Virus record (IMG/VR): IMGVR_UViG_3300047352_000113
Span: 1-35,203 of that record
Strand: one strand, 5' to 3'
Length of the DNA: 35,203 nucleotides
Origin: a virus
The notes under the pieces were generated by a model that was given only the letters and a program-made list of their open reading frames with translations, was not told the origin of the DNA and did not search any database. A program made the position numbers and the translations under genes. Below, piece by piece: positions 4,681-35,203 of the stretch (its first letter is position 1; each line of letters starts with the position of its first letter).

Positions 4681-5934
4681 TTAGTACCCTGCGTATGCGT
4701 CTAAGTATTCGTAATCTTCTTCTTCATAGTCCGATGTGTAGGCTATGTTAGCCAGTTGGTCTATGTAGGCGAGTGAGTCAATTAAATCATCGTGTACAAG
4801 TTGATTAGGGAATTGGAATAGTTCATCAAGAAACTCTGTATTCCATTCACCTTTGTTAAGTGTTATAGCACCGTGTTCAAACCTACCTTGTAAAGCCCAG
4901 ACAATCCTGTCCGTTTTCTTCTTATTACCATGCGTAAGTTCATCTATACGGAAGAACCTATTATTCTTTTTCATTATGTCTGAGAGATATGGTAGGACAG
5001 CATTCTTCAATGCTCCTTTTTCAATTCCCACAGCAGTCGGTCTATAGTCACGGACAGCTTCAAAAATCTTACGCGCAGTCTCTTCAACACCCCACCGACC
5101 ATAAATAATATCAGCGACCCACCAACCTTCTTCATTTGCTTTAACAACCGAGATGGCAGTTTGGTCAAGTCGTTTAGTTTTAGTTGTGGCTTTAGCAACA
5201 TCAGCAAATCCTGCCAAATCGACTGCAATATAGTATCCACCTGTTTCAGGTTCTTCCTCACTAAACTTGATGTAATCTTCTTTGAAGAGTTCACTACCCT
5301 GAGCCTCAAATGATGCCATAAACTCCTGTCGGAAACTAAATGCGGACATGGACTTCTTAGCCGCTTCAATCTCTTCAGGGTCTAGCAATGGATTATCGTA
5401 GCTTGTAAAGTGATAACCTACAAAGGTTTCATCCTCTGCAACACAAGCGTATGTATATAAGTCATAGAAGTGATTACGACCCATTGGCGTACCAATGAAT
5501 AGTGCTTCACCCTTTTGGTCAGCTAGTGCAGGACGTAGGATTTGTTCCCAGACCTCTGGCTTCATGTCAGCGTACTCATCCATAACTAGGAACTTAAGAC
5601 TGACACCACGCATGGTTTCTGGTCTATCTGCACCTTTGAGTGCTATGGTTGCACCGTTGACTAGCTTTATTTGTAAGTTATTGACATGACTAGAGGCTAT
5701 GACGGGGTTGCCTATCTCCATCAAGACTTGCCACATAATGTCCCTAGCCTGACCCTGCGTAGGGGCAACGTAGAAGACATGACCACGTTCAGTCTGTAAA
5801 GCCCTGATGATTAGCATCCAAGCGGCTAACCTTGACTTGCCTGTACGTCTACCCGCGGCTATGACCTTGAATCTAGTCTCATCTTCAAATACAGTTTGTT
5901 GCCACGGTAGTAACGAAACATTAAGTTCCGTCAT
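4681..5934 (-). CDS. terL: Terminase large subunit
   Basis: This 417-aa protein is the packaging motor. Walker A is GRRTGKS at residues 28-34, Walker B is LVMDE with D119-E120, and the C-terminal RNase H-like nuclease domain shows an Asp in AVDLAGFADVA (about 235), GIEKGALK and the closing HDDLIDSLAY. The ATPase translocates DNA into the procapsid and the nuclease cuts concatemers. It lies between the endolysin and portal genes with a one-base intergenic gap to the latter. Length and motif order are normal for podovirus TerL proteins. Confidence 0.96.
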   Translation of the reverse strand: MTELNVSLLPWQQTVFEDETRFKVIAAGRRTGKSRLAAWMLIIRALQTERGHVFYVAPTQGQARDIMWQVLMEIGNPVIASSHVNNLQIKLVNGATIALKGADRPETMRGVSLKFLVMDEYADMKPEVWEQILRPALADQKGEALFIGTPMGRNHFYDLYTYACVAEDETFVGYHFTSYDNPLLDPEEIEAAKKSMSAFSFRQEFMASFEAQGSELFKEDYIKFSEEEPETGGYYIAVDLAGFADVAKATTKTKRLDQTAISVVKANEEGWWVADIIYGRWGVEETARKIFEAVRDYRPTAVGIEKGALKNAVLPYLSDIMKKNNRFFRIDELTHGNKKKTDRIVWALQGRFEHGAITLNKGEWNTEFLDELFQFPNQLVHDDLIDSLAYIDQLANIAYTSDYEEEDYEYLDAYAGY

Positions 5935-6291
5935 TTAGTAAGTCCACATTACAAAAGGGGTTGTATCGTCAGGACTGCGGATGTCAACATGGACAAAACT
6001 ACGAGCAACTCCAATTCCCGTGAAACCCAGTTTGATAGCCTCCTCAACGATTTTAAAACGCTGTAAACCGTTGTTAACTTTAATGTCTGCGGCAATACCT
6101 TGTGCATGGGTTCCTGATTTAGTTTTCTTAGCTTCAATGGGGTGTGTTGCGTCTCTATATCCTGATGTGATTATGAATGGGAAACCACAAGCCTCTCTGA
6201 GTTCATCTAACTTATCAATCAACTCAGAACTTATTTCATTCTTACCTGTGTACTGACAGGCAAACTCTTTACGATTAAAATACTTAGCCAT
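5935..6291 (-). CDS. Endolysin, M15-type D-Ala-D-Ala/L-Ala-D-Glu peptidase
   Basis: This 118-aa protein is a single M15A-like zinc peptidase domain. The zinc ligands are visible: H62 in SGTHAQG, D69 in AADIKV (H-x6-D) and H101 in FVHVDI. The ITSGYRD motif at 41-47 is also characteristic. Such enzymes cut peptide cross-links of peptidoglycan at the end of infection. There is no signal peptide, so export should need a holin, and two holin candidates are encoded at 27812-28210 and 30035-30193. It is placed between TerS and TerL, far from the rest of the lysis genes. It overlaps the upstream gene by 8 bases and abuts TerL. Confidence 0.92.
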   Translation of the reverse strand: MAKYFNRKEFACQYTGKNEISSELIDKLDELREACGFPFIITSGYRDATHPIEAKKTKSGTHAQGIAADIKVNNGLQRFKIVEEAIKLGFTGIGVARSFVHVDIRSPDDTTPFVMWTY

Positions 6292-6685
6292 CTATGATTT
6301 CCCCATCGTCAATGACATCTTCATTGCTTGACACCACCGTGGTTTCTGCTCCACCAACTCCAGTAATGTTAATCTGTATTGCTGACTTACCTGCACCCTT
6401 AACGACATCATTCTCAAATACCGCTGTAGGTAATATCCTATCCATGACTAACTTCCATGCGGCGGCTTGATTCTTATGGTCATCGTTAAGTGCCGCATCG
6501 AATATTGATTCTAATACTTTACGAGACTTAGGGGATGACAACATCCTACCTTTGTACTCGTTGATGATAGCGGCATCACCCTTCGGGCGACCCCGTGACA
6601 AACCAGTCTGACCTTTCTTTCTTGACACCATCTCTGACTTCGGTGGTCTGCCCCTCCTTTTTGGAGGATTTTCTTTAGTAGCCAA
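6284..6685 (-). CDS. Putative terminase small subunit with AT-hook-like motifs
   Basis: This 133-aa protein is the first gene of the packaging operon. It has two AT-hook-like motifs near the N-terminus (KRRGRPPK at about 9-16 and SRGRPKG at about 30-36), a helical middle (NQAAAWKLVMDRILPTAVFE) and an acidic C-terminus ending NEDVIDDGEIIDG. Position two genes ahead of TerL and a DNA-binding N-terminus suggest TerS, which recognises the packaging site, but I see no canonical TerS HTH pattern. A gene-regulatory DNA-binding protein is the alternative. The leader between this gene and its promoter contains the phased CTTAAG repeats. Confidence 0.6.
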   Translation of the reverse strand: MATKENPPKRRGRPPKSEMVSRKKGQTGLSRGRPKGDAAIINEYKGRMLSSPKSRKVLESIFDAALNDDHKNQAAAWKLVMDRILPTAVFENDVVKGAGKSAIQINITGVGGAETTVVSSNEDVIDDGEIIDG

Positions 6686-6694
6686 TGGACTCTC

Positions 6695-6791
6695 CTTAAG
6701 TTATCTTAAGTATCCTTAGGACGCTTTAGTATTTAACATTAATGATTAATCTTTAAAGTAAATAACTAAACACTACTTAAGTATACTTAAG
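6695..6791. promoter_or_regulatory. Cluster of 10-bp-phased CTTAAG motifs in the late-operon leader
   Basis: CTTAAG occurs at 6695-6700 and 6705-6710, with CTTAGG at 6715-6720, exactly 10 bp apart. It recurs at 6776-6781 and 6786-6791, again 10 bp apart, as the perfect 16-bp palindrome CTTAAGTATACTTAAG. Further copies are at 6899-6904 and 6942-6947. A copy of the palindrome with one mismatch (CTAAAGTATACTTAAG) lies at 10681-10696 in the leader of the replication operon. Helical phasing and reuse at two operons suggest operator sites for a phage or host regulator, lying downstream of the leftward start site. Confidence 0.55.
6724..6761. repeat. Duplicated AT-rich leader element, copy 1
   Basis: This stretch of about 37 bases closely matches 10653-10688. 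Both begin CTTTAGT, share TTTAACATTAA, then GAT.AAT, and end TAAAGTA. Copy 1 lies in the leader of the leftward packaging operon and copy 2 in the leader of the rightward replication operon. The ends of the element form an inverted repeat (CTTTA...TAAAG). This looks like a shared control site, not chance AT-richness. Confidence 0.55.
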
Positions 6792-6820
6792 GCTCTAAAC
6801 AATGTCTTTATTATATCCAT

Positions 6821-6849
6821 ATTATAGCATACTTTAGATTAAATGTCAA
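6821..6849 (-). promoter_or_regulatory. Perfect-consensus sigma70 promoter for the leftward packaging operon
   Basis: On the minus strand TTGACA (6849-6844), a 17-base spacer and TATAAT (6826-6821) match the bacterial housekeeping consensus exactly. Transcription would start near 6814, leaving a leader of about 129 bases before the gene starting at 6685. The spacer contains CTAAAGTA on the minus strand (6837-6830), the octamer also found as an inverted pair at 10651-10688, so a repressor bound there would block RNA polymerase. Confidence 0.85.
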
Positions 6850-6903: not shown

Positions 6904-6929
6904 GTGACCTTTTTTATTATATTGGTCAT
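6904..6929. promoter_or_regulatory. Inverted repeat GTGACC-N14-GGTCAT, copy 1
   Basis: Half-sites GTGACC (6904-6909) and GGTCAT (6924-6929) are separated by exactly 14 AT-rich bases. The first base of the left half is also the last base of a CTTAAG motif. The same 26-bp architecture appears at 7136-7161 and 7294-7319. The three copies lie within 416 bases of the origin region, suggesting a dimeric DNA-binding protein with half-site centres about two helical turns apart. Confidence 0.6.
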
Positions 6930-7074
6930 ACATATCCCCGCCTTAAGAATACATAAGGAAAACAAACACTTAGGGTATGACTTTTGGTTATAACCTTTTA
7001 TTGAATATTGGCTTTTTTTGTATACAGGCGGGAACAGTCACACTATAAAAATCCTACAGACCCCCCGCCCCCTG

Positions 7075-7135
7075 TTATCCACAGGCTTTCCACAAGTTAT
7101 CCACAGGCACAGGAGTTATCCACAGGTAATCCACA
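7075..7135 (+). other. Candidate replication origin: array of DnaA-box iterons
   Basis: Three perfect DnaA boxes TTATCCACA lie at 7075-7083, 7097-7105 and 7116-7124, with two one- or two-mismatch boxes at 7086-7094 (CTTTCCACA) and 7127-7135 (TAATCCACA), all in the same orientation. The perfect boxes extend to the 11-mer TTATCCACAGG. Boxes 1-2-3 and 4-5 are spaced 11 bp apart, about one helical turn. AT-rich DNA (about 6905-7020) lies on the left as a possible unwinding element, and an inverted repeat follows directly on the right. The array sits in the largest non-coding region at the divergence of the two arms. Origin function is inferred. Confidence 0.75.
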
Positions 7136-7161
7136 GTGACCAGGATACTCAAGGCGGTCAC
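7136..7161. promoter_or_regulatory. Inverted repeat GTGACC-N14-GGTCAC, copy 2 (perfect)
   Basis: This is the perfect copy of the 26-bp element: GTGACC at 7136-7141 and GGTCAC at 7156-7161, 14 bases apart. It begins on the base directly after the last DnaA box, so origin binding and regulator binding would be side by side. It lies about 70 bases upstream of the first rightward promoter. Confidence 0.65.
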
Positions 7162-7228
7162 AAGGAAACTGGACGGGGAAGAGTGAGTATGCTAGCGGAT
7201 ACCTTTAGACCTACCCAAGAATAAACAC

Positions 7229-7293: not shown

Positions 7294-7319
7294 GTGACTA
7301 GATTGTTTATATTGGTCAC
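7294..7319. promoter_or_regulatory. Inverted repeat GTGACT-N14-GGTCAC, copy 3
   Basis: The third copy of the 26-bp inverted repeat has GTGACT at 7294-7299 and GGTCAC at 7314-7319, again 14 bases apart. It lies between the two rightward promoters, ending ten bases before the -35 box of P2, a position suited to either activating P2 or blocking read-through from P1. Confidence 0.6.
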
Positions 7320-7329
7320 TCTTTAGGTG

Positions 7330-7357
7330 TTGACAATATAATACTATTGCCTATAAT
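7330..7357 (+). promoter_or_regulatory. Rightward early promoter P2, consensus hexamers
   Basis: TTGACA (7330-7335) and TATAAT (7352-7357) are both perfect, with a 16-base spacer. The start would be near 7364, at the beginning of a 12-bp-spaced direct repeat of AACAGCGCA (7364-7372 and 7376-7384). It gives a leader of about 40 bases before the ATG at 7406. It is expected to be a strong host-RNA-polymerase promoter for the early genes. Confidence 0.8.
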
Positions 7358-10731: not shown

Positions 10732-11100
10732 ATGGCAGTATTAGAAGGAAATGTAGCGTTCGCTAACCTTGACGAACACGAAGAATATCAGGGTCAATCA
10801 ACTGGGAAATACTCATTGGTATTGTCGCTAGAACCTGCTGATGCAGATAAACTAGCCAATCAGGGTGTCAAACTACGCGAGTATGAAGGTACTCAGCAAC
10901 GCAAGTTTAGCACTAAATATGATGTACCCATGTTTGATGCAGATGGTAATGAGTTTAGTGGTCGATTAACCAGAGGTTCTAAGGTACGAGTTAAGTACGC
11001 AGAAGGTAAACCTCACCCAGTACACGGTACGTCCACCTACTTGTCAGCCATTAAGGTGCTAGAACTAGCGGAAGCTACCGAAGGTGGCGGTGACTTCTAA
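10732..11100 (+). CDS. Single-stranded DNA-binding protein, T7 gp2.5-like
   Basis: This 122-aa protein opens the replication operon. It has a predicted OB-fold (GKYSLVLSLEPADADKLANQ, SRLTRGSKVRVKY pattern) and ends EATEGGGDF. An acidic/Gly tail closing in Asp-Phe is the feature by which T7 gp2.5-type proteins contact polymerase and helicase. The family of short phage SSBs is recognised by this architecture; exact homology should be checked. It overlaps the primase-helicase start by one base (TAATG). Confidence 0.82.
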   Translation: MAVLEGNVAFANLDEHEEYQGQSTGKYSLVLSLEPADADKLANQGVKLREYEGTQQRKFSTKYDVPMFDADGNEFSGRLTRGSKVRVKYAEGKPHPVHGTSTYLSAIKVLELAEATEGGGDF

Positions 11101-12719
11101 TGACTGACTCGCATTTTGTCAGACATGAGCCATGCCCTTCGTGTGGCTCAAAGAACAACTTGGCGAGGTACTCCGATGGTCATGCCGTCTGCTTTACAGG
11201 CGGTTGTGACCACTACGAGAGAGGTGATGGTCAAGTTATTGAGAGTAAACCAAAAGCAAACAGGCGATTAGAAATGACAGGTGTTATAGCATCAATACCC
11301 GATAGACGTATCTCAGAGGCAACGTGCAAAAAGTTCGGTGTCACTGTTGAGTACGATACAGCAGGGAAGATAAGCAAGCACCACTACCCATACTTTGACA
11401 AGGACACAGGCGCACAGACAGGGAACAAGTCACGCATCGTAGAGAACAAAGCATTCTATGCGAGTGGTACGTTCGACAACGTAGGTCTGTTTGGTCAGCA
11501 AGCATTCAAAGGTGGTGGTAAATACATAACAGTAGTAGAAGGAGAAGCTGACGCACTAGCAGTATCGGAGATGTTTGATGGCAAATGGGCTGTCGTATCT
11601 ATTCGGTCAGGTGCATCAGGCGCAGTCAAAGACATCAAGGCAAACTTGGAATGGCTTGAGTCGTTTGAGAATGTGGTCATCTGTTTCGACAGTGACACAG
11701 CGGGTCAGGAGGCATCTCGCTCGGTGTTGGATTTGTTTACACCTAACAAAGCGAAGAACGTAAAGTTACCTGCAAAGGACGCAGGTGAAATGCTGAAGGA
11801 ACGTAACGTGCAAGGGTTCATCAAGGAATGGTGGAATGCAAAGACGTATCAACCTGATGGTATCATCTCAGGACTTGATACTTGGGAGTCGATTGTGGCA
11901 CAGGAAGAAGTCAAGTCGATACCATATCCGTGGACTTGTCTTAACGACCTGACCTACGGATTCAGGGAACGAGAACTTGTAACCATCACTAGTGGTTCAG
12001 GTATGGGTAAGTCACAGATTGTCAGAGAGTTGGAACACTACTTACTAGGTGCAACAGATGACAACATCGGCATACTCGCGTTGGAGGAGGACATACCCAA
12101 GACTGCTCTTGGCATTATGAGCATCGAGGCTAACCAAACTCTACACCTGAGTCGTGAGTTCGACAGGGATACCAAGAAGATATTTTGGGACAAGACTTTA
12201 GGTACAGGACGTATCTTTATGTTCGACCATTGGGGTTCAACCAATGAGGATAACTTACTAAGTCGCATTAGGTATATGGCGAAAGGTCTTGATTGTAAAT
12301 GGATTATCCTAGACCACTTGAGTATTGTTGTGTCAGACCAAGAGAACGGTGACGAACGTAAAGCCATTGACGGCATTATGACTAAGCTACGACAGTTAGT
12401 ACAGGAGACAGGCGTTGGGTTGTTCTTAGTGTCACACCTACGCAGACCTAACGGCAAAGCACATGAAGATGGTGGACAGATTAGCCTAGCAGAGTTACGT
12501 GGCTCGGCATCTATCGCACAGCTATCCGACATGGTGATTGGTTTGGAGCGTGACCAACAGAACGCTGACCCAACAGTGCGTAACACTACCACTGTCAGGG
12601 TACTCAAGAACCGCTTTGCGGGTCTAACTGGTCCTGCTTGTTACTTGTACTATGATAAGGACACAGGTCGTATGATTGAAACATCGTGTCCTGTAGCAGA
12701 TGATAAACAGGAGTTCTAA
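11100..12719 (+). CDS. DNA primase-helicase, T7 gp4-like
   Basis: This 539-aa bifunctional protein has an N-terminal zinc finger (C12, C15, C31, C36), a Toprim domain (VVEGEADA with E147, and FDSDTAG near 198), and a RecA-like DnaB-family helicase with Walker A GSGMGKS (299-305) and Walker B WIILDH (D405). It makes primers and unwinds the fork. It is translationally coupled to the ssDNA-binding gene and adjoins the polymerase with no gap. Length and domain order are as in T7 gp4. Confidence 0.95.
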   Translation: MTDSHFVRHEPCPSCGSKNNLARYSDGHAVCFTGGCDHYERGDGQVIESKPKANRRLEMTGVIASIPDRRISEATCKKFGVTVEYDTAGKISKHHYPYFDKDTGAQTGNKSRIVENKAFYASGTFDNVGLFGQQAFKGGGKYITVVEGEADALAVSEMFDGKWAVVSIRSGASGAVKDIKANLEWLESFENVVICFDSDTAGQEASRSVLDLFTPNKAKNVKLPAKDAGEMLKERNVQGFIKEWWNAKTYQPDGIISGLDTWESIVAQEEVKSIPYPWTCLNDLTYGFRERELVTITSGSGMGKSQIVRELEHYLLGATDDNIGILALEEDIPKTALGIMSIEANQTLHLSREFDRDTKKIFWDKTLGTGRIFMFDHWGSTNEDNLLSRIRYMAKGLDCKWIILDHLSIVVSDQENGDERKAIDGIMTKLRQLVQETGVGLFLVSHLRRPNGKAHEDGGQISLAELRGSASIAQLSDMVIGLERDQQNADPTVRNTTTVRVLKNRFAGLTGPACYLYYDKDTGRMIETSCPVADDKQEF

Positions 12720-14441
12720 GTGAAGCAAGTTGTATTTGATATAGAAGCCAACGGACTGAAGCCTACTAAGGTTTGGGTAATCGTGGCTTGCGACCTATCT
12801 AACCAAGAGACAGTTGTGTTCTCTGGTGATACGTTACAGGACTTCAATGCTTATATCAAAGATGCTGAGGTCATTGGTCATAACATCATTGGCTATGACG
12901 TACCAGTTCTTGAACGCTTACTAGGCACAGACTTTAGTAGTTGTAAGATTACAGATACATTAGTATTGTCAAGACTCACTGAACCATCGCGTGAAGGTGG
13001 TCATTCATTAGATAACTGGGGACAGCGTTTAGGTTTCCCTAAAGGAGAACACAGTGATTGGAATACATTTTCTCAGGATATGGTGGACTATTGCAAGCAA
13101 GACGTACTGGTTAATGTCAAAGTGTACAACGCGCTACGAAGTGTACTGGCAGGTTTTGGAAGCGAAAGCATTAGCCTTGAGCATCAAGTACAAAGCATTA
13201 TCACAAAACAAACGGACAACGGTTGGTTACTAGACCAAGAACACGCTTTTGTTTTACTTGCTAAACTTAAGGAAAAGAAGTACGACCTCGAAGATAAGGT
13301 ACATGAAACATTTAAACCGTTACCTACATTCATTAAGGAGATAACACCCAAGTACAAGAAGGACGGTACGATGTCCGTTGTTGGTCTTAAGTTTCTAGGG
13401 GACAGTTGGTCAGACTATATAGCACCATTTAGTCGTGTTGATTACCCAGAGTTTAACTTAGGTTCGCGTCAGCAGATAGGTAGATACTTACAATACTTTG
13501 GTTGGAAGCCCAAGAAGTTTACAGAGAAGGGTCAAGCCATTGTTGATGAAGCTATCTTATCTAAGGTAACTAATATACCAGAAGCTAATATGATTGCTGA
13601 GTACCTAATGGTTCAGAAGCGTATAGCACAGGTACAGTCATGGTTAGATGCTGTTGAGGACGATGGTCGTGTACATGGATATGTAAATGCTAACGGTGCA
13701 GTAACGGGACGTATGACACACTCTAGTCCTAACGTAGCACAAGTACCTAGTTCAGGCGCACCATATGGAGCAGATTGTAGAGCCTGTTGGACTTCACCTA
13801 AAGGCTACAAGATTGTTGGTATGGACGCATCAGGACTTGAGTTACGTATGCTTGCACATTATATGAACGATGAGGGATATACAAATGAAATACTCACTGG
13901 AGACATTCATACAGCAAACCAACTTGCTAGCGGTGTTGACACACGAAGTCAGGCAAAGACTTTCATATATGCGTTCTTGTATGGAGCAGGGGACGCAAAA
14001 ATCGGAAGTATCGTTGGAGGAACTGCTGTTGATGGTAGAAGACTTAAGAAGAAGTTCCTCTCAAACACGCCATCTCTTAGAGACTTACGAGAAAGAGTTA
14101 GCGTGGCATCTGGAAGAGGTTATGTTCACGGATTGGACAGGCGAAGGGTCGCAGTACGTTCAGAACACTCGGCATTAAACACATTGTTACAATCGGCAGG
14201 TGCTATCGTTATGAAGAAGGCATTATGTTTGCTAGACGAATACGCTAGTACTTGGAACTTAGATTATAAATTTATAGGAAATATACATGATGAAATTCAA
14301 ACAGAAGTTAAAGAAAGTGAAGCAGATGTTTTCGGACGCTTGGCAGTGTCTTGTATCGAAGCCTCTGGCATTTATTATAAACTTAATTGCCCCCTCGCAG
14401 GTGAGTACCAAGTCGGAGACAACTGGTCAGAAACGCACTAG
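12720..14441 (+). CDS. Family A DNA polymerase with 3'-5' exonuclease
   Basis: This 573-aa protein starts with GTG directly after the helicase stop. Exonuclease motifs are DIEANGL (D7, E9), IGHNIIGYDVP and YCKQD; polymerase motifs are A, DASGLELR (D369), B, R409-x3-K413-x7-YG (Y421), and C, HDE (523-525). It is a T7 gp5-type replicase, shorter than T7's roughly 700 residues, with most of the loss apparently in the thumb region where T7 has its thioredoxin-binding loop. All catalytic residues are present. Confidence 0.95.
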   Translation: MKQVVFDIEANGLKPTKVWVIVACDLSNQETVVFSGDTLQDFNAYIKDAEVIGHNIIGYDVPVLERLLGTDFSSCKITDTLVLSRLTEPSREGGHSLDNWGQRLGFPKGEHSDWNTFSQDMVDYCKQDVLVNVKVYNALRSVLAGFGSESISLEHQVQSIITKQTDNGWLLDQEHAFVLLAKLKEKKYDLEDKVHETFKPLPTFIKEITPKYKKDGTMSVVGLKFLGDSWSDYIAPFSRVDYPEFNLGSRQQIGRYLQYFGWKPKKFTEKGQAIVDEAILSKVTNIPEANMIAEYLMVQKRIAQVQSWLDAVEDDGRVHGYVNANGAVTGRMTHSSPNVAQVPSSGAPYGADCRACWTSPKGYKIVGMDASGLELRMLAHYMNDEGYTNEILTGDIHTANQLASGVDTRSQAKTFIYAFLYGAGDAKIGSIVGGTAVDGRRLKKKFLSNTPSLRDLRERVSVASGRGYVHGLDRRRVAVRSEHSALNTLLQSAGAIVMKKALCLLDEYASTWNLDYKFIGNIHDEIQTEVKESEADVFGRLAVSCIEASGIYYKLNCPLAGEYQVGDNWSETH

Positions 14442-16816: not shown

Positions 16817-16934
16817 AGGGTCAGGACGTAGACCCACCAAAGATGCCGAACAGTTTGCAAATAATTGGGACGCTATCTTTAAGAAACAAAAACCTAAAGA
16901 ACAGAAACCAAAGGATAAGGAAGAGAAGAAATGA
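16791..16934 (+). CDS. 47-aa Lys-rich protein (DYGKGSGRRPT type)
   Basis: A 47-codon ORF begins MKGQTDYGKGSGRRPTKDAE, then FANNWDAIF and a Lys/Glu-rich tail. The DYGKGSGRRP...F..NWD.IF pattern recurs in small proteins of marine T7-like phages. AAAGGAGAT precedes the start. It overlaps the end of the DUF3310 gene by 26 bases and the ribonucleotide reductase start by four (ATGA), so it is positioned to couple their translation. Confidence 0.6.
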   Translation: MKGQTDYGKGSGRRPTKDAEQFANNWDAIFKKQKPKEQKPKDKEEKK

Positions 16935-18808
16935 ATCAGTACCAAGAGTTTATACACAAGTCTCGCTATGCACGTTGGCTACCTGAAGAAGGCAGACGAG
17001 AGCGATGGGATGAGACAGTCAATAGATACGTAGACTTCTGGAAGGAACGTGGTCAGATAAACGAGAAGACAGCCCTACAGTTGTTCAATGCTATCCATGA
17101 CCTAGACGTAATGCCCAGTATGCGCTGTATGATGACAGCAGGTGAAGCGTTAGACAAGGACAACGTAGCAGGGTTTAACTGTAGTTATCTACACATTGAC
17201 TCACCACGTAGCTTTGATGAACTTATGTACGTCCTTATGTGTGGTACTGGAGTAGGCTTTAGTGTTGAACGTAACTTCATTACCAAGCTACCTGTCATTG
17301 CTGAGTCATTCCATGAGACTGACAGCACCATTGTAGTAGCCGACAGCAAGATTGGATGGGCTAGTGCATTCCGTGAGTTGATTGCTATGCTGTACGCAGG
17401 TAAGATACCTAAGTGGGATATGCACAAGGTACGCCCATCAGGTGCTAGACTTAAGACATTCGGTGGTCGTGCTAGTGGCGCAGAGCCTCTTGAGGATTTG
17501 TTTAACTTCTGTGTGGGTATATTCCAGAAGGCATCAGGACGTAAGCTAACGAGCATTGAGTGTCACGATGTTGTATGTAAGATTGCAGACATTGTAGTTG
17601 TCGGTGGTGTACGTAGGTCAGCATTGATTAGTTTGTCAAACCTATCAGACCCACGTATGGCTAAGGCTAAGTCTGGTCAGTGGTGGATGGATGAAGGACA
17701 ACGAAGACTAGCTAACAACAGCGTAGCGTACACAGAGAAGCCAGACTTTGAGTCATTCCTTACTGAGATGCACACCATGTACGACAGTAAGGCAGGAGAG
17801 CGTGGTATCTTTAGTCGTGTGGCGGCACAGAAGATAGCCGCTAAGAACGGACGGAGAGACCCTGAGCAGGACTTTGGAACTAACCCTTGCTCTGAGATTA
17901 TCCTACGCAGTAATCAGTTCTGTAACCTATCTGAGGTCGTTATACGAGCAGATGATGACCTTGTTAGTCTTAAAAAGAAAGTTGAAGTAGCTTCCATTAT
18001 CGGAACCCTACAGGCTACCTTGACTGACTTCCGCTACCTACGCAACGTATGGAAAAAGAATACAGAAGAAGAAGCACTATTAGGTGTCAGTTTAACAGGT
18101 ATATGTGACCACTATTTACTGGGTAAAGATTCACCAGACCTAGATAAGTGGTTAGAGGAGATGAAGGATGTTGCAGTTAAAACTAATAAAGAATGGGCTG
18201 AGAAACTTGGCATCAATCAGTCTACAGCTATTACTTGTGTTAAGCCAAGCGGTACTGTGTCTCAGCTTGTTGATTCTGCTAGTGGCATACATCCCCGTTT
18301 TTCTAAGCATTATATCCGTAGAGTGCGTTCAGACAAGAAAGACCCGCTTGCTCAGTACATGACAGCCGCAGGTTTCCCTGTGGAAGATGACGTAATGAGT
18401 AAGTCTTCATTGGTCTTTGGCTTTCCAATCAAGTCACCTGAGAGCAGTACCACAGTAAAGCAGGTGGGTGCTATGGAACAGCTAAGAGTTTGGAAGAAGT
18501 ATCAAGACCACTGGTGCGAACATAAGCCAAGTATCACTGTTTATTATACAGATAGTGAGTTCCTGCAAATAGCACAGTGGATATGGGATAACTTTGATTC
18601 GGTTAGTGGTATTAGTTTGTTGCCAGTTAGTGACCATGTGTATCAGCAAGCCCCGTATGAGGACATAACCGCTGAGAAGTATGAGGAGTTACTTGCGGCT
18701 ATGCCAGTTGATATTGATTGGGATGACCTAGAGAACTTTGAGAAGGAGGACAACACTACAGGTTCTCAGGAACTAGCGTGTGTCGGAGGAGCGTGTGAAA
18801 TAGCATAG
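16931..18808 (+). CDS. nrdJ: Class II ribonucleotide reductase, adenosylcobalamin-dependent, monomeric
   Basis: This 625-aa enzyme reduces ribonucleotides to deoxyribonucleotides using adenosylcobalamin to make its thiyl radical. All five expected cysteines are present relative to Lactobacillus leichmannii RTPR: C84 (NCSYLH), the thiyl Cys C320 in NPCSE (318-322), its partner C331 exactly 11 residues later, and the C-terminal shuttle pair C617/C622 (CVGGAC). It is shorter than the 739-aa Lactobacillus enzyme. It is the last gene of the replication operon and supplies dNTPs; it works only if the host makes or imports cobalamin. Oxygen-independent catalysis suits variable marine conditions. Confidence 0.95.
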   Translation: MNQYQEFIHKSRYARWLPEEGRRERWDETVNRYVDFWKERGQINEKTALQLFNAIHDLDVMPSMRCMMTAGEALDKDNVAGFNCSYLHIDSPRSFDELMYVLMCGTGVGFSVERNFITKLPVIAESFHETDSTIVVADSKIGWASAFRELIAMLYAGKIPKWDMHKVRPSGARLKTFGGRASGAEPLEDLFNFCVGIFQKASGRKLTSIECHDVVCKIADIVVVGGVRRSALISLSNLSDPRMAKAKSGQWWMDEGQRRLANNSVAYTEKPDFESFLTEMHTMYDSKAGERGIFSRVAAQKIAAKNGRRDPEQDFGTNPCSEIILRSNQFCNLSEVVIRADDDLVSLKKKVEVASIIGTLQATLTDFRYLRNVWKKNTEEEALLGVSLTGICDHYLLGKDSPDLDKWLEEMKDVAVKTNKEWAEKLGINQSTAITCVKPSGTVSQLVDSASGIHPRFSKHYIRRVRSDKKDPLAQYMTAAGFPVEDDVMSKSSLVFGFPIKSPESSTTVKQVGAMEQLRVWKKYQDHWCEHKPSITVYYTDSEFLQIAQWIWDNFDSVSGISLLPVSDHVYQQAPYEDITAEKYEELLAAMPVDIDWDDLENFEKEDNTTGSQELACVGGACEIA

Positions 18809-34399: not shown

Positions 34400-35203
34400 T
34401 TATGCACCAACCATTAGGTTGAAAGCGGCATCTGGACGAAGAACCGCAGTGCCGTATAGAGTATCAGCAGTGTAAAGAGAACCTAAGAACTCTTGCTTGT
34501 ACTGAGTCTGTGAACGAACACCTTGTTGCTCGGCAAGAACCATAGCATCTTTGTGGAACAACATAGCTTGCTTAAGGTCTACAGCACTTGCAGAGTTGTC
34601 ACCCGCGGCTTCAATAACAGGACAGTTAGAAGAAACAAAGATGTCAATACCGTACAAGTTACCGATTTGACCATTGTTTACAACACGACCATCTACGAAG
34701 TCACTTGAAGAATAACGGTCAATGCCCATGATTGCATTACGAACTGATGGTGGTACTACAAGACAACGATTGTCCATAGGTACGTCAGCATCATCCATTT
34801 TTTGAATCAAGTCACGGAAACCTGCATCAGTAAATACGTCAGCAACACCGTTAGCAGTATCATCAGTATACTGAGTCAAGCCGTTAGTTCCGTCAATGAA
34901 GTAAGAACCTGTACCTTCATAAGCGGCATTGTTGTTACCAAAAGACTTACCTAGAGCAAACAAGTCAGTGTCCACTTGTTTAGCTAGAGCGTAACCTGCG
35001 TCACCAGTGTAGAACTGACGAAGAGATGCAAGTGCTTGTGCTTCAGTAATGTCTTCGATTAAACGTGAGTACTCGAAGTGCTTGTCAACTGTTACTTGTA
35101 CTTCAGACTCAGTAGCATTCTGAATAGTTACAGCAGTGTTTTCGGCTTTAGCGTTAGCTGTGCCACGAACAGGCTTAGGAATGTGAATAGTGTCACCTTT
35201 CTT
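34400..35203 (-). CDS. Major capsid protein, C-terminal part (gene begins at 280)
   Basis: This is the remainder of the coat gene; its 5' end lies at position 280 across the contig join (the last 127 bases repeat 1-127). It includes LFALGKSFGNNNAAYEGTGS, then FTDAGFRDLIQKMDDADVPM, NRCLVVPPSVRNAIMGIDRY and the C-terminus TLYGTAVLRPDAAFNLMVGA, stopping at 34400. These are the features of T7-like/marine podovirus coat proteins. A strong terminator follows. The joined gene has exactly 319 codons including stop, confirming that the two window ends belong together. Confidence 0.93.
   Translation of the reverse strand, partial: KKGDTIHIPKPVRGTANAKAENTAVTIQNATESEVQVTVDKHFEYSRLIEDITEAQALASLRQFYTGDAGYALAKQVDTDLFALGKSFGNNNAAYEGTGSYFIDGTNGLTQYTDDTANGVADVFTDAGFRDLIQKMDDADVPMDNRCLVVPPSVRNAIMGIDRYSSSDFVDGRVVNNGQIGNLYGIDIFVSSNCPVIEAAGDNSASAVDLKQAMLFHKDAMVLAEQQGVRSQTQYKQEFLGSLYTADTLYGTAVLRPDAAFNLMVGA
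35077..35203. repeat. Right copy of 127-bp terminal direct repeat
   Basis: Identical to bases 1-127; see the left copy. Only one copy should be counted when the genome is closed. Confidence 0.95.

Follow-up and report, generated by a model that had tools for sequence, protein, structure and literature searches.

A phased array of DnaA boxes at the early/late junction of an uncultured marine podovirus, a candidate exchangeable platform for the host initiator

In the control region between the late and early genes of an uncultured marine podovirus, three perfect DnaA boxes (TTATCCACA) and two near matches lie on one strand (+) within 61 bases, at positions 7075-7135 of the window, as we call the whole stretch of 35,203 nucleotides analysed here. 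We tentatively propose that this array is an optional, swappable platform on which an oligomer of host DnaA would form at the early/late junction and act early in infection. This local, early platform was ranked first among the explanations considered, followed by a DnaA-dependent replication origin and by titration of host DnaA, which share second place.

The window begins and ends with an exact 127-bp repeat (1-127 and 35077-35203) that sits within the capsid gene, and the two halves of this gene overlap across the window ends. Because the ends share this repeat inside the capsid gene, the window is an essentially complete circular map of about 35.08 kb; the record is classed as linear, yet the assembly is circular, with about 35,076 bp. 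The virus is a podovirus of bacteria that lacks an RNA polymerase. This absence had been part of the original prediction and was confirmed: neither the window nor 11 relatives contained the RNA polymerase family PF00940, which was found in 4 Autographiviridae controls; these were used because a search with bacterial control genomes was uninformative. An origin of the T7 promoter type, which calls for a phage RNA polymerase in the genome, therefore has no such enzyme to rely on here. The array lies in a non-coding, divergent control region of 711 bp (~0.7 kb), from which a late block (putative small terminase, large terminase, portal and others) runs leftward and an early block rightward. The features to which we refer are the following.

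4681..5934, - strand: large terminase subunit
6284..6685, - strand: putative small terminase gene, the first leftward gene, assigned from its position adjoining the large terminase
6695..6791 (6695-6710, 6705-6720, 6776-6791), unstranded: CTTAAG-type palindromes around the late promoter, with another at 6942-6957
6700..6849, unstranded: AT-rich stretch, GC 16-26% in 50-bp windows, 225-375 bp left of the array
6821..6849, - strand: consensus sigma-70 promoter, TTGACA-17-TATAAT with TG before the -10 box, facing the putative small terminase gene and the late genes
6904..6929, unstranded: third inverted repeat, GTGACC-N14-GGTCAT, upstream of the leftward promoter
7020..7037, + strand: left conserved flank, GTATACAGGCGGGAACAG, which resembles the right flank in direct orientation
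7061..7072, + strand: C-rich tract, CCCCCCGCCCCC, kept in most element variants whatever array type follows
7075..7083, + strand: DnaA box 1, TTATCCACA, perfect, from the sequence scan
7086..7094, + strand: DnaA-like box 2, CTTTCCACA, two mismatches, in the 11-bp register, read from the sequence
7097..7105, + strand: DnaA box 3, TTATCCACA, perfect, from the sequence scan
7116..7124, + strand: DnaA box 4, TTATCCACA, perfect, from the sequence scan
7127..7135, + strand: DnaA-like box 5, TAATCCACA, one mismatch, from the sequence scan
7136..7161, unstranded: inverted repeat GTGACC-N14-GGTCAC, immediately 3' of the array
7183..7203, + strand: right conserved flank, GTGAGTATGCTAGCGGATACC
7294..7319, unstranded: second inverted repeat, GTGACY-N14-GGTCAC, 10 bp upstream of the early -35 box
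7330..7357, + strand: consensus sigma-70 promoter of the early genes, TTGACA-16-TATAAT
10732..14441, + strand: T7-type replication block, made up of a ssDNA-binding protein (10732-11100, +), a primase-helicase (11100-12719, +) and a family A DNA polymerase (12720-14441, +)

The small terminase gave no family match and is assigned by position alone. Both sigma-70 promoters lie ~200 bp from the array, one on each side, and AT-rich DNA is found near it at 6700-6849, where it also carries the late promoter, and at 6975-7024. Three copies of a 26-bp inverted repeat, GTGACY-N14-RGTCAY, surround the array, and across relatives the spacer measures 14 in 88/90 copies; this repeat is probably the operator of some dimeric regulator. 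An apparent mutual exclusion between arrays and the GTGACC inverted repeats was lost when independent tree pairs were compared. The CTTAAGTATACTTAAG-type palindromes (6695-6791 and 6942-6957) cluster at the late-gene promoter with its consensus extended -10 box and are likely to form a late-gene switch. No RNA or tRNA element was found, no DnaA-trio-like repeats were seen beside the boxes, and a search for a phage-encoded DnaA, which detected its positive controls, returned none. The last gene of the rightward block (16931-18808) encodes a ribonucleotide reductase that resembles the B12-dependent class, with an insertion-domain match falling just below the Pfam cut-off.

The composition of the array was as originally claimed, and a scan of all 35.2 kb of the window located exact copies of TTATCCACA at 7075, 7097 and 7116 and nowhere outside the array. 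Each of these three is directly followed on its 3' side by GG. When the 711-bp intergenic region was dinucleotide-shuffled 5000 times and the whole window 300 times, there was never more than one exact same-strand box per 61 bp, against the three observed; the region thus holds several boxes matching TTWTNCACA or TTATCCACA beyond chance. The predicted 11-bp phasing holds for most of the array, the box-to-box steps being 11, 11, 19 and 11 bp, with the 19-bp step as the one break.

No named phage matches the virus by DNA or by its small terminase, while hundreds of relatives are present in IMG/VR. The virus's DNA polymerase is closest to those of the Pelagibacter phages HTVC103P/104P (52%); in the record of HTVC104P there are two isolated boxes but no array. 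With the conserved flanks and the small terminase gene as guides, we collected 105 distinct versions of the element, sorted into classes D, G and N by thresholds, from IMG/VR contigs, which are partly redundant and fragmentary. DnaA-box arrays with two to seven exact or near boxes each occupy the space between the flanks in 58/105 versions, a GC-rich array of another kind in 7/105, and most of the remaining versions have neither type. The GC-rich arrays, with units of ~11 bp (CACACCTGCG / CGCACACACG type), replace the DnaA boxes in L003, L026, L058, L221, L224, L226 and L229. In the 58 DnaA-box arrays, all exact boxes (176 forward, 0 reverse) share one strand, and the same contigs outside the element hold 7 exact boxes in 459 kb. 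Spacings of 11, 22, 21 and 31 bp dominate in the relatives' arrays, and the longer spacings in the window's own group are in helical phase (R=0.62, p about 1e-7, clade-collapsed), with a best period of 11.2; tandem duplication or slippage of the 11-bp unit alone could yield part of this phasing. Even in distant relatives, with large terminases 53-79% identical, arrays occur at the same junction, with the boxes inverted in three cases.

Single substitutions in the boxes fall mainly at position 3, where A becomes T, and at position 5, where C becomes A; the published DnaA consensus TTWTNCACA (PMC12371093) allows both. After collapsing clades, 12/30 changes fit this consensus versus 4.4 expected (p=7e-4), so that the sites kept in the 58/105 variants change in ways that DnaA tolerates. 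The prediction that host DnaA binds these boxes is strengthened by the comparison: since they match the consensus, lie on one helix face, mutate at tolerated positions and recur at the same site in relatives, host DnaA very probably recognises the array, as far as sequence can tell.

The array is not a constant possession of this phage group. On a quick maximum-likelihood tree of the neighbouring DNA on the small-terminase side, at least 15 switches between array and non-array states were placed on well supported branches, with breakpoints that fall at the conserved flanks. The versions L209 and L210 are near-identical up to the left flank and from there on unrelated, except for the C-rich tract and the right flank; therefore, the junction is a recombination seam, and the array moves together with the early side or close to it. 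The pairs L350/L354 and L099/L205, like L209/L210, display sharp early/late recombination at the flanks of the element, their left sides near-identical and their right sides unrelated. A tie between the array and a neighbouring early gene (25/33 vs 4/19, uncorrected p=2e-4) was likewise lost in independent tree pairs. In the near-full-length, array-less genomes G001-G004, G006 and G008-G010 (33-38 kb), neither an exact TTATCCACA nor a cluster of relaxed boxes was detected, and the primase-helicase of array-less L003/G001 is 99% identical to that of the window. Because such relatives exist, one of them with so similar a primase-helicase, a DnaA-box origin is not a fixed part of this replisome. 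Related phages thus carry arrays at the same site in 58/105 versions of the element, and the near-full-length sisters named here lack them.

Similar arrays occur in phages of other kinds. A synthetic-array query retrieved similar stretches in 328 named phage records, chiefly of T5-like, Klebsiella or Salmonella phages. In the T5-like phage BF23, boxes are located at the divergent pre-early junction, within the left terminal repeat; the T7-like phage phiEap-1 has five perfect boxes within its 195-bp terminal repeat, and cp32 has two within a terminal repeat of 114 bp. These terminal-repeat boxes of phiEap-1 (L380/L385) and cp32 (L386/L387) are perfect and unannotated in the records, and no mention of DnaA boxes in T7-like terminal repeats was found in the literature searched, the coverage of which is incomplete. 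P483 carries five boxes in the gap that separates its first early gene from the packaging genes, and the SP6-like phages ZK1 and PmP19 carry five to six near the ends of their records. In the cultured phages, the spacings are in helical phase (R=0.65, with spacings partly from related phages). Like the window, phiEap-1, cp32, P483, ZK1 and PmP19 thus have phased same-strand boxes where packaging and early genes meet. Those tested, P483, phiEap-1 and ZK1, differ from it in encoding an RNA polymerase, and the element has no sequence homology to ours. Because these three have both array and polymerase, arrays do not substitute for a missing RNA polymerase; what they have in common is their setting at a genome end or early-gene junction. 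The boxes of phiEap-1 and P483 point against the early genes, whereas those of the window point along them.

The injection-stop region of T5, BF23 and other Demerecviridae shares with the window the presence of TTATCCACA boxes in a divergent intergenic region, which in the T5-like phages is pre-early and near the genome end, and the published description of the T5 injection-stop signal includes DnaA boxes (PMC13250531). However, T5-like phages are large, inject in two steps, and have long terminal repeats, fewer and less regular boxes and unrelated genes. A documented parallel for a host cell-cycle regulator at phage genome ends, by analogy, is CtrA, whose sites are concentrated at the genome end or gap of alphaproteobacterial phages; there the regulator is CtrA and not DnaA, and that study saw no asymmetry of DnaA sites (PMC9437464). 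E. coli oriC resembles the window in its consensus boxes, its direct repeats with 2-bp gaps and the AT-rich DNA nearby. It differs in combining a few strong sites and numerous weak ones in a pair of opposed arrays, whereas the window's array is dispensable between sister phages and has no visible DnaA-trio.

According to the original prediction, the array is an origin: host DnaA would bind it and melt the nearby AT-rich DNA, where the T7-like primase-helicase and polymerase would then enter. The same-strand, phased consensus boxes and the conserved AT-rich DNA adjoining the element would suit this role, T7-type origin priming lacks a phage RNA polymerase here, and the conserved flanks could act as a core replicator whose initiator sites are exchangeable. 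Against this stand the sister with the 99% identical primase-helicase and seven other near-full-length relatives that have neither exact box nor relaxed cluster, so that the array is neither required by the replisome nor conserved with it; the want of DnaA-trio-like repeats beside the boxes also weighs against an origin. The argument drawn from the missing RNA polymerase fails, as T7-like and SP6-like phages that bear one carry the same arrays. The cumulative GC skew does have its minimum at ~7 kb, at the array, but this coincides with the divergence of gene directions, which explains it, and the skew at fourfold sites is noisy, changes in the opposite sense and has no origin-type minimum at the array; GC skew was accordingly discarded as a pointer to the origin. 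We therefore consider an origin feeding the T7-like replisome unsupported and unlikely. Equally improbable, in our estimation, is that the boxes serve to soak up host DnaA as phage copies accumulate, until host initiation stops. For such a sink, position and orientation would be nearly irrelevant and the intergenic region merely available room, which agrees with boxes of strong consensus, with arrays that are optional and whose number of boxes (2-7) and orientation vary from group to group, and with their recurrence in unrelated lytic phages; in E. coli, chromosomal boxes are documented to titrate DnaA (PMC12371093). Yet a sink needs neither helical phasing nor a uniform strand within arrays, and because an incoming genome brings 3-5 boxes versus hundreds on the host chromosome (PMC12371093), titration could operate only late.

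Two further explanations would dispense with DnaA. The element might belong to a pac or cos site or to a terminal repeat, read by terminase or another phage protein and merely resembling DnaA boxes. It does adjoin the putative small terminase gene, its C-rich tract and direct flanks are retained in most variants, and the boxes of phiEap-1 and cp32 lie within terminal repeats. The pattern of substitutions, however, fits DnaA, and small terminases more than 90% identical occur with entirely different arrays, which makes a packaging signal very unlikely and led us to reject the small terminase as reader of the array. Least credible of all is a neutral minisatellite, a functionless 11-bp unit spreading by slippage: the use of only one strand within each array, the biased spectrum of substitutions, a phase retained across degenerate units and the same box in unrelated phages with other spacers all speak against it, even though the unit of 11 bp with a GG spacer retained in 136/176 boxes, the variable copy number and the GC-rich alternative arrays at the same place are what slippage could leave behind.

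We thus return to the platform for host DnaA. Since a 2-bp spacing promotes cooperative binding of DnaA in oriC (PMC6727663), we infer that four to five boxes of the same direction on one helix face would bind a DnaA oligomer that is short and cooperative, in much the way that 2-bp-spaced arrays do in bacterial oriC. This platform would be situated between the leftward late and rightward early promoters, which both belong to the host sigma-70 type, and probably near a genome end, by analogy with T7-like phages. Contig ends are enriched near the element but scattered rather than stacked, and as assembly breaks in a variable region explain this scatter, the pile-up of contig ends was rejected as a means of placing the genome end. 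The array is swapped as a cassette between the conserved flanks and is missing from sister phages, which makes it an auxiliary module rather than an obligatory origin. Its action would most likely be local and early, on incoming or first-round phage DNA, setting host DnaA beside the early promoter and the neighbouring AT-rich DNA. Two observations sit less easily with this proposal: the orientation of the boxes relative to the early genes varies between phage groups, which is hard to square with a local action that is strictly directional, and ~200 bp from either promoter is far for a classical regulator.

Beyond this virus, it is possible, at a level of confidence below that of the platform itself, that unrelated lytic phages (this podovirus family, T7-like, SP6-like and T5-like phages) have independently adopted a common device: helically phased DnaA-box arrays, placed at the early/late junction or genome end and exchangeable between close relatives, by which incoming DNA senses or captures the host initiator. 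If DnaA binds, a large group of uncultured marine phages uses the host replication initiator via a cassette-like cis element. Together with the arrays in T7-like terminal repeats and the T5 injection-stop region, an old unexplained feature would become directly testable in ordinary phages of E. coli and Enterobacter, and the question is raised of what host DnaA does on phage DNA during the opening minutes of infection.
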